From the NCBI GenBank assembly GCA_025355465.1, contig JANXZO010000066.1:19864-83863 (forward strand): a DNA stretch of 64,000 bases, given 5' to 3'. Numbering within the stretch: position 1 is the first letter of the stretch; each line of letters opens with the position of its first letter. Below are positions 22,907-27,808 of this stretch, piece after piece. The translations under genes and the position numbers were made by a program. The stretch is from Bacteroidales bacterium (lineage in GTDB: Bacteria; Bacteroidota; Bacteroidia; Bacteroidales; FEN-979). The notes under the pieces were generated by a model. It had not been told where the DNA came from. It worked only from the letters and a program-made list of their open reading frames with translations, and ran no database searches.

Positions 22907-23699
22907 CCTAGTTTTGATAACAGGTGCAGCAGGGGGCCTGGGAAAAGCAATGACGCTCTTTTTTTCGGCCAAAGGATGGCATGTTTATGCCTGCGATGTA
23001 GTTAAGTCGACACCGGCTGAATTTCAGCGTTCCGGCGGAATCACGTACTTTGAAATGGATGTTACTTCTGATCAGTCTGTATTGGCTGTTTTTGAACAAC
23101 TTCAGTCGGACAAGGTAATCCTCGACCTAATTATCAACAATGCCGGCATCGATCGCTATTTTCCCCTGAGCGAGGCTCCTGTGGAGTACTTCCGGGAGGT
23201 ATTCGAAGTCAACGTTTTCGGAGTTTACCGGTTGAACCAGGTGTTCCTGCCGTTGTTAAAAAGACCCGGCGGACGAATTGTTCATATCGGTAGCGAAAGC
23301 CTTAATCTGACCGTTCCATTTCTTACCTACCCATTATCGAAAAAACTTTTGGAGGGGTATGCAAAGGTGTTGAGACAGGAGCTGAAATTCTCCGGTATCG
23401 ATGTTGTGGTCATAAGACCCGGTGCGATCGAAACGCCGTTGCTTAACCAAGTTAAAACGCTAAACTCTGTCAGGATGAGCTGGAAGCTGGCTCCTCAGTT
23501 CAGAAAATTTGCCGAGGGCGCTGTGAAAGAGATCGGAAATGTTATCAGTCCACAGGAGGCAGCAGAATTCGTCTATAATAAATCCATAATTCCAGATCCA
23601 TCAGCAGTCTACCGCATTAATAACAGTCTGCAGCTTCGCATTGCCGCGATGCTCCCGTACCGATTGGTAGAAAAAATTGTAAGGAAAAGGCTTAGCTGA
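22899..23699 (+). CDS. SDR family NAD(P)-dependent oxidoreductase
   Basis: A 266-residue classical short-chain dehydrogenase: TGAAGGLGKAMTLFF (cofactor motif TGxxxGxG), LIINNAGIDRYF (NNAG), GSESLNLTVPFLTYPLSKK (catalytic Ser and Y-x-x-x-K), and RPGAIETPL. It overlaps the geranylgeranyl-reductase-family gene by 8 bases, so the two are probably translationally coupled and may act on one lipid or isoprenoid substrate. It converges on the FdhA-like gene with a 5-base gap. Confidence 0.88.
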   Translation: MNSLVLITGAAGGLGKAMTLFFSAKGWHVYACDVVKSTPAEFQRSGGITYFEMDVTSDQSVLAVFEQLQSDKVILDLIINNAGIDRYFPLSEAPVEYFREVFEVNVFGVYRLNQVFLPLLKRPGGRIVHIGSESLNLTVPFLTYPLSKKLLEGYAKVLRQELKFSGIDVVVIRPGAIETPLLNQVKTLNSVRMSWKLAPQFRKFAEGAVKEIGNVISPQEAAEFVYNKSIIPDPSAVYRINNSLQLRIAAMLPYRLVEKIVRKRLS

Positions 23700-23704
23700 G
23701 CAGA

Positions 23705-26089
23705 TTACTCTACATGGTGCAGTCTTGCCAGCCCATCGGCAGTATGAAACTTCTCCAGAAATAGTGTCCGTGTTCCGGGATGGTCGGGTGTTGTACAGGG
23801 CCATTGTATTCCCTGATTCTCAATACGTGCCCAGCTTAGTCCGGCCAGATCGGGTGCTGCTTTCGCCAATTCATCGAAAATTTCAGAAGAATTCCAATAT
23901 TCTGGCCAGGGGACCAGATTGAAGGAACCTTCATTCGCCTTGTTTAGTTTTTCCATGCGTGCGGCAATGGCCGAAATGATCTGCCAGTCTCCCCAGGCAT
24001 TACCCGGTGCCTCTACGGCTTTTCTTACCCGCAGAACCCTCCGGTTGCTGCTGGTAAATGTCCCATCCTTCTCCGCAAAACAGGAGGAAGGCAAAATTAC
24101 ATCGGCAAAAGGAGCAGTGTCATTAAAGAAGATATCCTGCAGAACAACAAATTCAAATTTCTTCAGGGACTCCTGCGCAGATTCCCGGTCGGCCGACATT
24201 TTGACAGGATCCTGGCCCAGAATGTAAAGCCCTTTCAGGATCCCCTTCTCGGCGGCATGGAGCATTTCAATGGTTCGTAATCCGGGGGTAATATTCAACT
24301 CTTCCCGGGGGATATTCCAGAGTTTCGAAACCAGTTTACGATTTTCTTCGATATCAACCTCCCGGTAGCCCGGATAATAATACGGAATTGCTCCGGCGTC
24401 GGAAGCCCCCTGCTCGTTGTTCTGGAAGCGCAATGGCTGAATCCCGCTCAACTCACGACCGATCTTGCCGGTTACCAGGCAGAGGTTCATCAAGGCATAG
24501 ATTGCCGAACGGCTTTGTCCGTCAAGCCTGATGTCCATACCGGTTGCAATGAGCGCATCCGGCGCTGAGGCATACATGGTGGCGGCTGCAATGATCTTGT
24601 CTTTCTCAACCCCCGTTATCTTTTCAGTGTATTCCGGAGTAAATTTTTCGATTGAATTTCTGAGCGACATCACCGCCTGCATGCCTCCGTTTATGTTTCG
24701 CCGGATGAACTCCATATGAAACAGGCTGCGGTTAAAGACCACATTCAGGATGCCGTTGATCAGGGCAATTTTTGTTCCCTTCAGCGGGCGAAGATGAAGG
24801 TCGGCATAGCGGTTCATAGGACGTTCCTGTGAATCGATCACGATGATTTTTGCCCCCTTGGCTTTACTTCGTTTGGCAAAGGTGGCCATCACGGGAAGGG
24901 ACTCAACAAGATCGCTGCCCAATACCAGGATGCAGTTTGTCCGCTCGATGGCTTCGAGGGCATTGGTGGCTGCAGCTTCACCAAGGTTGAGCATCATCGG
25001 AACCAGGTTTGTTTCCGGGTAACGCATGGTTGAACAATCAACATTATTGTTGCCAAGCCGGGTTCGCACAAATTTCTGGAACAGATAGTTTTCCTCGTTG
25101 GTACATTTGGCGGAAGCCAGGCCGCCGGTAGCACGCTGGCCATGTTCGGTGCGGATCTCGTTAAACCGGCTGGCAACCAGGTCCAGCGCTTCATCCCATG
25201 AGGCTTCGGTAAATTTTCCGTTACGTTTAATGAGGGGCGTCGTAAGTCGTTCCCCACTGCTGATAAAGCCGTAATTGAACCTTCCTTTGATACAGAGTCT
25301 GCCGTCGTTCGGGAGTTTGTCGTGTACGCCGTTGATGCGGAGCACGGTATTGTCTTTGATGAGCATCTCCACCTGGCAACCTACACCGCAATGTCCGCAA
25401 GTAGTGATAACCTTTTTATCCAGATCATCCAGCCGGATCTTGTCGCGGTTTGGTTTTTCAACCAATGCCCCGGTGGGGCAAAGCTGCACACACTCGCCGC
25501 AGTAGTCGCATTCAGATTTACTCCAATTGCCAAAACCTGCAACAACGTGGGTACCCATGCCACGACCGGTCATGGAGAGTACGTTTTTCCCCTGGATTTC
25601 CGAACAGGCCTTGATACAGCGGAAACAGCGGATACACTTGCCGGCATCATAGGTTAGAAAAGGTGAAGTGTCGTCCTTCCACACGGCGGCATCCAGGTGC
25701 GGAAGCGGTGCGATCCTGCGGTTTGCCTTGTCGGCCAGGCCATAACGAACAATCACATCCCTGAATTCGTCTTCATATGTCCCATCAGAGGAGGAATCAT
25801 AGTCGACCAGCATGTATTCGATAAGGTACCGGCGTGTCTCTTCCAGTTCCGGATCAAATGCTGTCACCTGCATGCCATCTTTTACAGTGGTGGTGCAAGC
25901 AGTAACCAGCCCGGGCGTGTCTTTTATCTTTGTGATACAAAGCCGGCAGGTTCCGGTCGGGGAGAGTTTTTTGAAGTGGCACAAACCGGGAATATCGATG
26001 CCGTTATTTCTGGCAACCTCCAGTAAGTTGGACCCGGCCGGTGCACTGATCTTTTTGCCGTCGATCGTTAATTGAACCAGTTCTGACAT
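23705..26089 (-). CDS. Degenerate formate-dehydrogenase/NuoG-like Fe-S subunit
   Basis: A 794-residue protein collinear with FdhA/FdhF-type subunits. It keeps an N-terminal [2Fe-2S] domain (Cys 37, 48, 51, 65), two ferredoxin-type [4Fe-4S] sites (Cys 152/155/158/162 and 194/197/200/204) and the MopB [4Fe-4S] site (Cys 231, 234, 238, 266). Three expected features are missing. The His-Cys3 cluster region after residue 88 reads YMLVDYDSSSDGTYEDEF. The catalytic CAR(C/U)H segment reads CSTMRYP, putting Tyr357 and Pro358 where Cys/Sec and His should be. The protein also ends at GLARLHHVE, where FdhF continues into its C-terminal molybdopterin domain. Last gene of the NuoE-NuoF operon. Formate oxidation is unlikely. 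Confidence 0.8.
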   Translation of the reverse strand: MSELVQLTIDGKKISAPAGSNLLEVARNNGIDIPGLCHFKKLSPTGTCRLCITKIKDTPGLVTACTTTVKDGMQVTAFDPELEETRRYLIEYMLVDYDSSSDGTYEDEFRDVIVRYGLADKANRRIAPLPHLDAAVWKDDTSPFLTYDAGKCIRCFRCIKACSEIQGKNVLSMTGRGMGTHVVAGFGNWSKSECDYCGECVQLCPTGALVEKPNRDKIRLDDLDKKVITTCGHCGVGCQVEMLIKDNTVLRINGVHDKLPNDGRLCIKGRFNYGFISSGERLTTPLIKRNGKFTEASWDEALDLVASRFNEIRTEHGQRATGGLASAKCTNEENYLFQKFVRTRLGNNNVDCSTMRYPETNLVPMMLNLGEAAATNALEAIERTNCILVLGSDLVESLPVMATFAKRSKAKGAKIIVIDSQERPMNRYADLHLRPLKGTKIALINGILNVVFNRSLFHMEFIRRNINGGMQAVMSLRNSIEKFTPEYTEKITGVEKDKIIAAATMYASAPDALIATGMDIRLDGQSRSAIYALMNLCLVTGKIGRELSGIQPLRFQNNEQGASDAGAIPYYYPGYREVDIEENRKLVSKLWNIPREELNITPGLRTIEMLHAAEKGILKGLYILGQDPVKMSADRESAQESLKKFEFVVLQDIFFNDTAPFADVILPSSCFAEKDGTFTSSNRRVLRVRKAVEAPGNAWGDWQIISAIAARMEKLNKANEGSFNLVPWPEYWNSSEIFDELAKAAPDLAGLSWARIENQGIQWPCTTPDHPGTRTLFLEKFHTADGLARLHHVE

Positions 26090-26111: not shown

Positions 26112-27356
26112 TTAAAAGTCTTTTCTGAAGTATTTTATTGCGCTTTCCAGCGGAAGAAGGGGTGACTGACCTACAGCGCAAAGTGATGTAGCGGCCATCA
26201 TTCTGGCTTGTTTCAACATCTCATCGAGCAGTGCATCTTTATCTGCCCCTTCCGCTTTTACCTTATCGGCCATCTTTTTAAGTTGCGTGGTTCCCACCCG
26301 GCAGGGCACACATTTTCCGCATGAGTTGGTTCTGAAGAAGCTAAGCAGGGAAGAGACCGTATCGGCCAGGTTTCGTTCGTCGTTGTAAACGATCACTGCG
26401 CCGGCTCCGAGGTGAAACCCTTTTTCACGCATGGCATCGTAGCATAGCGGCGTATCGAGGTATTCTTCCGGTATAAAGGTTCCGGCGGCACCTCCAAGCA
26501 ATGCACCCTTGAATTTTTTTTCCTCCTTCATCCCCCCGGCAAGATCCTCAATCAGCACACGGAGCGGCGTCCCCATCGTGACTTCAAAAAAGCCGGGGTT
26601 TTTCACGTCGCCTGTAACGGTGAATATTTTTGTGCCTTTGGAGGTGGCTGTTCCCATGGAAGCGTACCATTCACCTCCGTTAAGAATGATGGATTGAAGA
26701 TGCGCCAGCGTCTCCACATTGTTGATAAGGGTAGGTTTATTGAATAAGCCTCTCTCCATCGGGAGTGGTGGTTTTACCCGTGGTGTGCCCCGCTTGCCTT
26801 CAATGGTTTCGAGCATTGAAAAACCGTCGCCACTCAGGTAGGAGCCCGCCCCGGGTTTTACCTCAATTTCCATGGAAAACTCCGATCCGGCGATGTTTTT
26901 ACCCAGGTAACCCTTGTTCCTCGCATCTTTGATGGCCTTCCGGATCAGCGAAATGGCTTTGCTGTATTCTCCACGGATGTAAATATACCCTTTGCTCGCG
27001 CCAATGGCATAGGCACCGATCACCATCCCTTCGATGAGCAGGTGCGGGTCGTTTTCCATGATGATCCGGTCTTTGAATGTCCCGGGTTCGCTTTCATCAC
27101 CGTTGCAGACGATGTACCGCTGAACATTCCATTTGGTTGTCTCACCGGTTGACCGGCTTTTCTGGGCAGCAGAGAATCCGCTTCCCCCGCGACCCCGCAA
27201 ACCGGAACGGGAAATTTCTTCGACTACCCGCACCGGCTCCATGTCGAGGGCTTTCACAAGAGCTTCATAGCCTCCATGGGCAATATATTCGTCGATGCTC
27301 TCAGGGTTGATCTTGCCCAGATGTTTAAGGGCTATCCGGTGTTCTGTTGCTTTCAT
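26112..27356 (-). CDS. NuoF-like flavoprotein subunit with altered nucleotide site
   Basis: A 414-residue relative of NuoF/HydB. FMN-site residues are present (SGLRGRGGSGFSAAQKS, NGDESEPGTFKDR), as is the N3-type [4Fe-4S] motif (Cys 346, 349, 352, 393 in NSCGKCVPCRVG and SLCAVGQS). The highly conserved GAGAYxCGEETAL loop reads GAGSYLSGDGFSML (residues 169-182), so the acidic pair near the pyridine nucleotide is lost. There is no C-terminal ferredoxin extension of the bifurcating HydB type. It lies between the nuoE-like gene (2-base gap) and the FdhA-like gene (22-base gap). It should form an electron-transfer module; its nucleotide substrate is uncertain. Confidence 0.85.
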   Translation of the reverse strand: MKATEHRIALKHLGKINPESIDEYIAHGGYEALVKALDMEPVRVVEEISRSGLRGRGGSGFSAAQKSRSTGETTKWNVQRYIVCNGDESEPGTFKDRIIMENDPHLLIEGMVIGAYAIGASKGYIYIRGEYSKAISLIRKAIKDARNKGYLGKNIAGSEFSMEIEVKPGAGSYLSGDGFSMLETIEGKRGTPRVKPPLPMERGLFNKPTLINNVETLAHLQSIILNGGEWYASMGTATSKGTKIFTVTGDVKNPGFFEVTMGTPLRVLIEDLAGGMKEEKKFKGALLGGAAGTFIPEEYLDTPLCYDAMREKGFHLGAGAVIVYNDERNLADTVSSLLSFFRTNSCGKCVPCRVGTTQLKKMADKVKAEGADKDALLDEMLKQARMMAATSLCAVGQSPLLPLESAIKYFRKDF

Positions 27357-27358
27357 GG

Positions 27359-27808
27359 CTAATTATATTCGCTGAGTATTTCGGGCAGTATTTCAGGTTT
27401 CAGGTCACCATAAACATCTTCATTGACCATCATCACCGGTGATTTATCGCAATGTCCAAGGCAGATCGTATATTCAAGGGTGAACCGGCCATCTGCCGTG
27501 GTTTCTCCTGCACCTATTCCAAGGTCTTTCTTCAGTGTCTCTTCGATCCGGTTTCCTTTTTCAAGTTCGCAAACCGGCGATTTGCAGATGCGGATAATAT
27601 ACCTGCCGCGCGGTTTCAGACTGAACATGGAGTAAAAGGTAACAACTCCATAAACCTGACTGTGCGTCATATTCAGGTAGGAAGCTACCGCGCGAAGATC
27701 TTCTTCTTCGAGGTAATGCTGCGGATGGTTATTCTGCAGTTCATGCAGGATAAGTATCAGGTTATCTGCGTTGGGTGCGAATTTATGAATCAGCTGTGTT
27801 TTGTCCAT
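27359..27808 (-). CDS. NuoE-like [2Fe-2S] subunit
   Basis: A 149-residue thioredoxin-fold ferredoxin of the NuoE/HydC family. The N-terminal helical part (HELQNNHPQHYLEEEDLRAV) precedes the [2Fe-2S] ligands: CKSPVCELEKG (two Cys) and TICLGHCDKSPVMMV (two Cys). The canonical pattern is C-x4-C then C-x3-C; here the first pair is spaced C-x4-C and the second C-x3-C, so the cluster should be intact. First gene of the operon with NuoF-like and FdhA-like subunits. It would wire the flavin to the other clusters. Confidence 0.88.
   Translation of the reverse strand: MDKTQLIHKFAPNADNLILILHELQNNHPQHYLEEEDLRAVASYLNMTHSQVYGVVTFYSMFSLKPRGRYIIRICKSPVCELEKGNRIEETLKKDLGIGAGETTADGRFTLEYTICLGHCDKSPVMMVNEDVYGDLKPEILPEILSEYN

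Follow-up and report, generated by a model that had tools for sequence, protein, structure and literature searches.

The window, the whole stretch of 64,000 nucleotides that was analysed, carries on its minus strand a three-gene operon in the order NuoE-like, NuoF-like, FdhA-like, with gaps of 2 bp between the first two genes and 22 bp between the last two:

27359..27808, minus strand: NuoE-like 2Fe-2S subunit, 149 aa, with 100% of its near-invariant positions retained
26112..27356, minus strand: NuoF-like subunit, 414 aa, with an FMN/NAD(P)H site and one 4Fe-4S cluster, without a C-terminal ferredoxin domain
23705..26089, minus strand: FdhA-like alpha subunit, 794 aa, with Fer2_4 (2Fe-2S), two Fer4 (4Fe-4S), Molybdop_Fe4S4 (proximal 4Fe-4S) and Molybdopterin domains, without Molydop_binding

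A convergent SDR-like gene ends at 23699, 5 bp from the FdhA-like gene, and the other flank is occupied by what we take, from their sequences, to be a YqeY-like gene and ftsZ. The operon itself includes no gene for a ferredoxin or another partner, scans for promoters and terminators returned matches at chance level only, and the G+C content of the locus is that of the neighbouring sequence. None of the three genes contains a stop or a frameshift, including the FdhA-like reading frame with its 0 internal stops.

Family assignment and distribution of the FdhA-like subunit

The FdhA-like protein matches positions 1-549 of the 672 of TIGR01591 (formate dehydrogenase alpha subunit) with 546.7 bits, below the curated cut-off of 666, and the best PDB matches of its AlphaFold model are alpha subunits of NAD-linked formate dehydrogenases (TM 0.92). 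On these profile and fold comparisons, the protein is an FdhA homologue. An identity as NuoG, the 75-kDa subunit of complex I, which likewise combines Fe-S domains with a cofactor-free molybdopterin-fold domain, was considered and rejected: the protein is far closer to FdhA, its TIGR01973 (NuoG) score of 307 bits lies under the cut-off of 470, and, outside any nuo operon, it is accompanied by no nuo genes except the NuoE/NuoF-like pair. Complex I is encoded separately in the source genome, and its NuoG is short: 325 aa, ending after the Fe-S domains, with the gene directly before nuoH (L187; G000:C52, 5937-6914, plus strand).

Gene set, domain order, Fe-S ligands and fold are shared with NAD-dependent formate dehydrogenases (FdsABG of Rhodobacter capsulatus, RcFDH, 6tg9; FDH1 of Methylorubrum extorquens, 7vw6) and with orthologues from the same order and from Spirochaetes, to which identities are 47-54% and 46-47%, respectively. 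All relatives of the order whose flanks were read show the same NuoE-NuoF-FdhA gene order. In a phylogenetic tree, the FdhA-like protein forms a long branch beside the intact orthologues of its order and of Spirochaetes (bootstrap 92). In contrast to the cytoplasmic NAD-dependent enzymes, however, it lacks the catalytic Cys/Sec and His as well as Molydop_binding, invariant residues of its pocket are changed, and its NuoF-like partner has lost the CGEE motif.

Catalytic loop, molybdopterin pocket and C-terminal domain

The changes in the alpha subunit concern the following features:

25004..25036, minus strand: former catalytic loop, residues 352-362, CSTMRYPETNL, compared to YCTRLCHASTV in relatives
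25019-25021, minus strand: Tyr357
25016-25018, minus strand: Pro358
24407..24430, minus strand: residues 554-561, RFQNNEQG (RGQNNVQG in relatives), with Arg kept, Gly replaced by Phe555 and Val by Glu559; a low-confidence loop of the model
23705..23713, minus strand: C-terminal end, where the protein stops at the point at which the family enters the dinucleotide-binding domain, so that about 115-120 aa are absent

Within the active-site stretch, NNVDCSTMRYPETNL, the protein has NNVDCSTMRYPET where its relatives have NNVDYCTRLCHAST, and thus neither Cys/Sec nor His. The first-pass annotation of this DNA had aligned the stretch without gaps and placed Tyr357 at the position of the near-invariant Cys and Pro358 at that of the His, and one gapless alignment bears out this assignment. 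A second aligner, however, opens a one-residue gap and puts Arg356 and Tyr357 at the Cys and His positions; in neither the gapless nor the gapped alignment does a Cys, Sec or His fall at the metal site. Since 10 of the 11 residues of the loop depart from the order's consensus, it is not meaningful to name one residue as the replacement of the Cys. No other frame of the active-site stretch encodes CTRLCH, and a local (double) frameshift therefore does not explain the altered loop.

Among the relatives, the loop reads NN(V/I/L/M/Q)DYC(T/A)RLCHAST within the order (about 47-54% identity) and CARLCH or CARL(Sec)H in distant representatives of many phyla, and the Cys or Sec and the His are retained in every relative checked at this loop (>100). 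The Tyr/Pro form is thus unique to the source genome among those searched, 1 of roughly 1,300 distinct genomes. Among the matches listed, no relative shared it in the 43 genomes of the family or in samples of the order (two), the class and the phylum; apart from the source genome, the family's remaining 42 genomes have no close homologue at all. Instead of a Tyr/Pro signature common to Bacteroidota homologues, for which the first-pass annotation had suggested looking, we found CxRLCH or CxRLUH in all of those checked. As the altered form comes from a single genome, its conservation cannot be shown.

The earlier description, in which the loss was precise and its surroundings conserved, did not hold up, as the alterations extend far beyond the loop. 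With near-invariant positions defined as those conserved in at least 97% of 135 full-length homologues, 13 of 70 are changed in the molybdopterin domain, whereas all 25 in the Fe-S domains are unchanged (Fisher p 0.018, a modest value, with sites within a domain not being independent). In leave-one-out controls on functional relatives, the median number of changes, all domains taken together, was 0 and the maximum 5. Changed invariants (family residue first) include N393D, H398L, P420S, G519D, G526S, G555F, V559E, E626Q and P633A. The flanking sequence, which had been called FDH-like, is so in part: Arg554, corresponding to the active-site Arg587 of RcFDH, is retained, but the same LRFQNNEQG stretch contains the replacements of the invariant Gly and Val. 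Residue 559 aligns with Val592 of RcFDH, the residue that the small Mo ligand faces (PMC7171172).

Furthermore, Molydop_binding (PF01568), which spans residues 795-900 in an intact orthologue (L179), is absent from the FdhA-like protein. Searches for a remnant of this C-terminal domain elsewhere in the window gave chance-level matches only, and no match to PF01568 was found in the whole genome (98.8% complete). The absence of a further cluster with His/Cys3 ligation (A4 of RcFDH) was rejected as part of the loss, because the intact relatives from the order and from Spirochaetes that were compared lack it as well. Taken from its sequence, the protein is strongly predicted to bind no pterin cofactor, and a function as Mo/W formate dehydrogenase is very unlikely.

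A lack of molybdenum cofactor synthesis was ruled out as an explanation by the presence of MoeA and a MoaA-like gene in the source genome, where, with no Molydop_binding enzyme encoded, the cofactor is presumably used by enzymes of a different class. FdhD was not found in this genome; its absence is uninformative, however, because it was likewise undetected in 22 of the 24 genomes tested that belong to the same order and carry an intact trio. This type of formate dehydrogenase may mature without FdhD or with a divergent FdhD.

Conserved Fe-S domains and the nucleotide site of the NuoF-like partner

The ligands of the proximal 4Fe-4S cluster (C231, C234, C238 and C266), which are invariant, are all retained. 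When branch lengths were fitted to a fixed tree separately for the molybdopterin domain, the Fe-S domains and NuoF, the terminal branch accounted for 10.4%, 5.4% and 4.0% of the tree length, respectively, with no acceleration of the Fe-S-domain and NuoF branches relative to the tree. Under neutral drift, scaled from the share of once-invariant sites that are now replaced, the alpha gene should have acquired 7-9 nonsense changes, compared to 0 seen. AlphaFold modelling of the protein, a step in line with the first-pass annotation, gave a confident overall fold (mean pLDDT 87.7), but values below 50 occur at residues 354-356, 521-524 and 556-563, the pocket loops with the rewritten catalytic and pocket motifs, and otherwise only at 133-135.

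The partner subunit is altered at its nucleotide site:

26823..26834, minus strand: NuoF residues 175-178, SGDG, replacing the near-invariant CGEE

Compared to 111 homologues, 7 of 63 near-invariant positions of the NuoF-like protein are changed (6 in the most divergent relative), including C175S, E177D, E178G and E344N, the last of which adjoins a cluster ligand. The Fe-S ligands, the glycine-rich FMN-binding motif and NxDE..PGTFKDR are retained, as are a Phe and a Lys whose RcFDH counterparts contact the adenosine moiety of NADH. The NADH ribose is bound in RcFDH by Lys157 and by the second Glu of CGEE (Glu259, by alignment; PMC7171172). Since this ribose-binding Glu is now Gly, the complex could use NADP(H). 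A related pattern, CGES and NGDE, is present in the HydB chain 8a6t_B, which we take to belong to the Thermoanaerobacter kivui enzyme. Purified T. kivui HydABC was reported to use NADP and not NAD (PMC8578170). Because of this resemblance to an NADP-specific HydB, we hypothesize that the complex prefers NADP(H); alternatively, judging from the same replacements, the NuoF-like subunit could have lost NAD(P)H binding.

Two side observations concern similar proteins. A NuoF-like gene on a Chloroflexi contig (L085) encodes CGEG, with the second Glu likewise changed to Gly, beside an FdhA with selenocysteine. Three HydA-like genes, each with NuoE/NuoF-like partners, lie on one contig of the source genome (L185 and L186; G000:C40).

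Candidate function of the operon complex and alternative explanations

We consider it reasonably likely that the operon encodes a cofactor-free descendant of a formate dehydrogenase, retained for electron transfer along an NAD(P)H-flavin-FeS path. Because the Mo/W site is erased and the Fe-S and flavin parts are conserved, the complex probably passes electrons and no longer handles formate. Its ancestor would have been a non-bifurcating, NAD-linked NuoE-NuoF-FdhA formate dehydrogenase such as those of the Bacteroidales-like relatives and Spirochaetes. Loss of Mo/W-bis-pterin binding would have made formate oxidation impossible, and with the alpha subunit retained as a folded Fe-S subunit, the complex would be a soluble diaphorase. 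Electrons would run through the FMN and the 4Fe-4S cluster of NuoF and the chain of 2Fe-2S and 4Fe-4S clusters of the alpha subunit. The exchange partners would be a pyridine nucleotide, which may be NADP(H), and a carrier protein, for example ferredoxin. Points that speak against this reading are the single genome in which the altered form is known, the changed nucleotide site of NuoF and the lack of a partner gene in the operon. An extra Fe-S domain in the NuoF-like subunit marks bifurcating enzymes of the Bfu type (PMC9304861); as it is missing here, the complex should, by its domain content, be non-bifurcating. More tentatively, erasure of the Mo/W site together with a change of the nucleotide site may have turned the formate dehydrogenase complex of a single lineage into a soluble oxidoreductase of the NADP(H):ferredoxin type, in a separate repeat of the step behind NuoG and StnC. 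The earlier suggestion of another partner or substrate, or of a structural role, thus pointed in the right direction, away from a Mo/W formate dehydrogenase, but it treated the change as a local substitution in an enzyme that is FDH-like elsewhere; the absent C-terminal domain, the further replacements in the pocket and the altered NuoF nucleotide site went unnoticed.

The loss of active-site residues in two of the three proteins and the restriction of the altered form to one genome would also be expected if formate dehydrogenase function had been lost and the genes were drifting towards pseudogenes. However, the intact frame and the unaccelerated Fe-S-domain and NuoF branches argue against a decaying gene, as do the absence of stops and frameshifts from all three genes, given the nonsense changes expected in the alpha gene alone, the full retention of near-invariant Fe-S-domain positions and the tight spacing of the operon, and we regard decay as unlikely. 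Slightly more unlikely is a structural or regulatory leftover, an Fe-S protein without catalytic ends that performs neither nucleotide nor formate chemistry. Both ends are indeed altered, the MoCo pocket as well as NuoF (CGEE to SGDG, and E344N), but the FMN motif, NxDE..PGTFKDR and the adenosine-contacting Phe and Lys all remain, and the motifs of 8a6t_B show that a related pattern occurs in HydB.

With the position of Tyr357 in the gapless alignment and the MoeA and MoaA-like genes kept in the genome, one may also consider that the alpha subunit still binds the pterin cofactor or another ligand and carries out a new reaction, in which Tyr would coordinate the metal through its oxygen. The missing dinucleotide-binding domain and the bulky or charged residues at pocket invariants (G to F, V to E, G to D, H to L) make this highly improbable. 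Least probable of all is an assembly or sequencing artefact in the contig. The altered form was seen only once, but many codons are changed in two genes with the frame intact and a G+C content like that of the neighbours; one-base errors cannot yield a rewritten loop, and the normal loop is found in no other frame.

The preferred reading, a formate dehydrogenase descendant retained for electron transfer, has counterparts among known systems. StnABC, an Nfn-type Bfu transhydrogenase (8oh5), likewise combines a NuoE/NuoF-like pair with an alpha subunit whose FdhF-like domain is catalytically inactive (PMC10482914). However, the inserted GltD-like NADPH domain of StnC and the C-terminal ferredoxin domain that StnB needs for bifurcation are both absent here. 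Another trio of the source genome, whose alpha subunit also looks non-catalytic, has the anatomy of StnABC (L178; G000:C23, 3034-9085, minus strand), consisting of a NuoE-like protein, a NuoF-like protein with a C-terminal Fer4 domain and a 1228-aa protein with Fer2, GltD-like, Fer4 and molybdopterin-fold domains; most of the family's genomes that were searched encode proteins related to these. QrcB and ActB are homologues of catalytic subunits that lack the cofactor (PMC6303296) and, as proposed here, function inside electron-transfer complexes, although theirs are membrane-bound, quinone-linked and from another branch of the family. The best reading is that the operon complex represents an independent parallel to NuoG, StnC and QrcB.

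Complex I and the Stn transhydrogenase each contain a dead formate-dehydrogenase-like domain. To our knowledge, loss of the cofactor with the wire kept is known for such domains from ancient cases only. Because intact orthologues of the same gene order with about 53% identity exist, the conversion could be tested by expressing both forms. Moreover, the gene would be labelled a formate dehydrogenase in annotation, implying a formate metabolism that the organism probably does not have.
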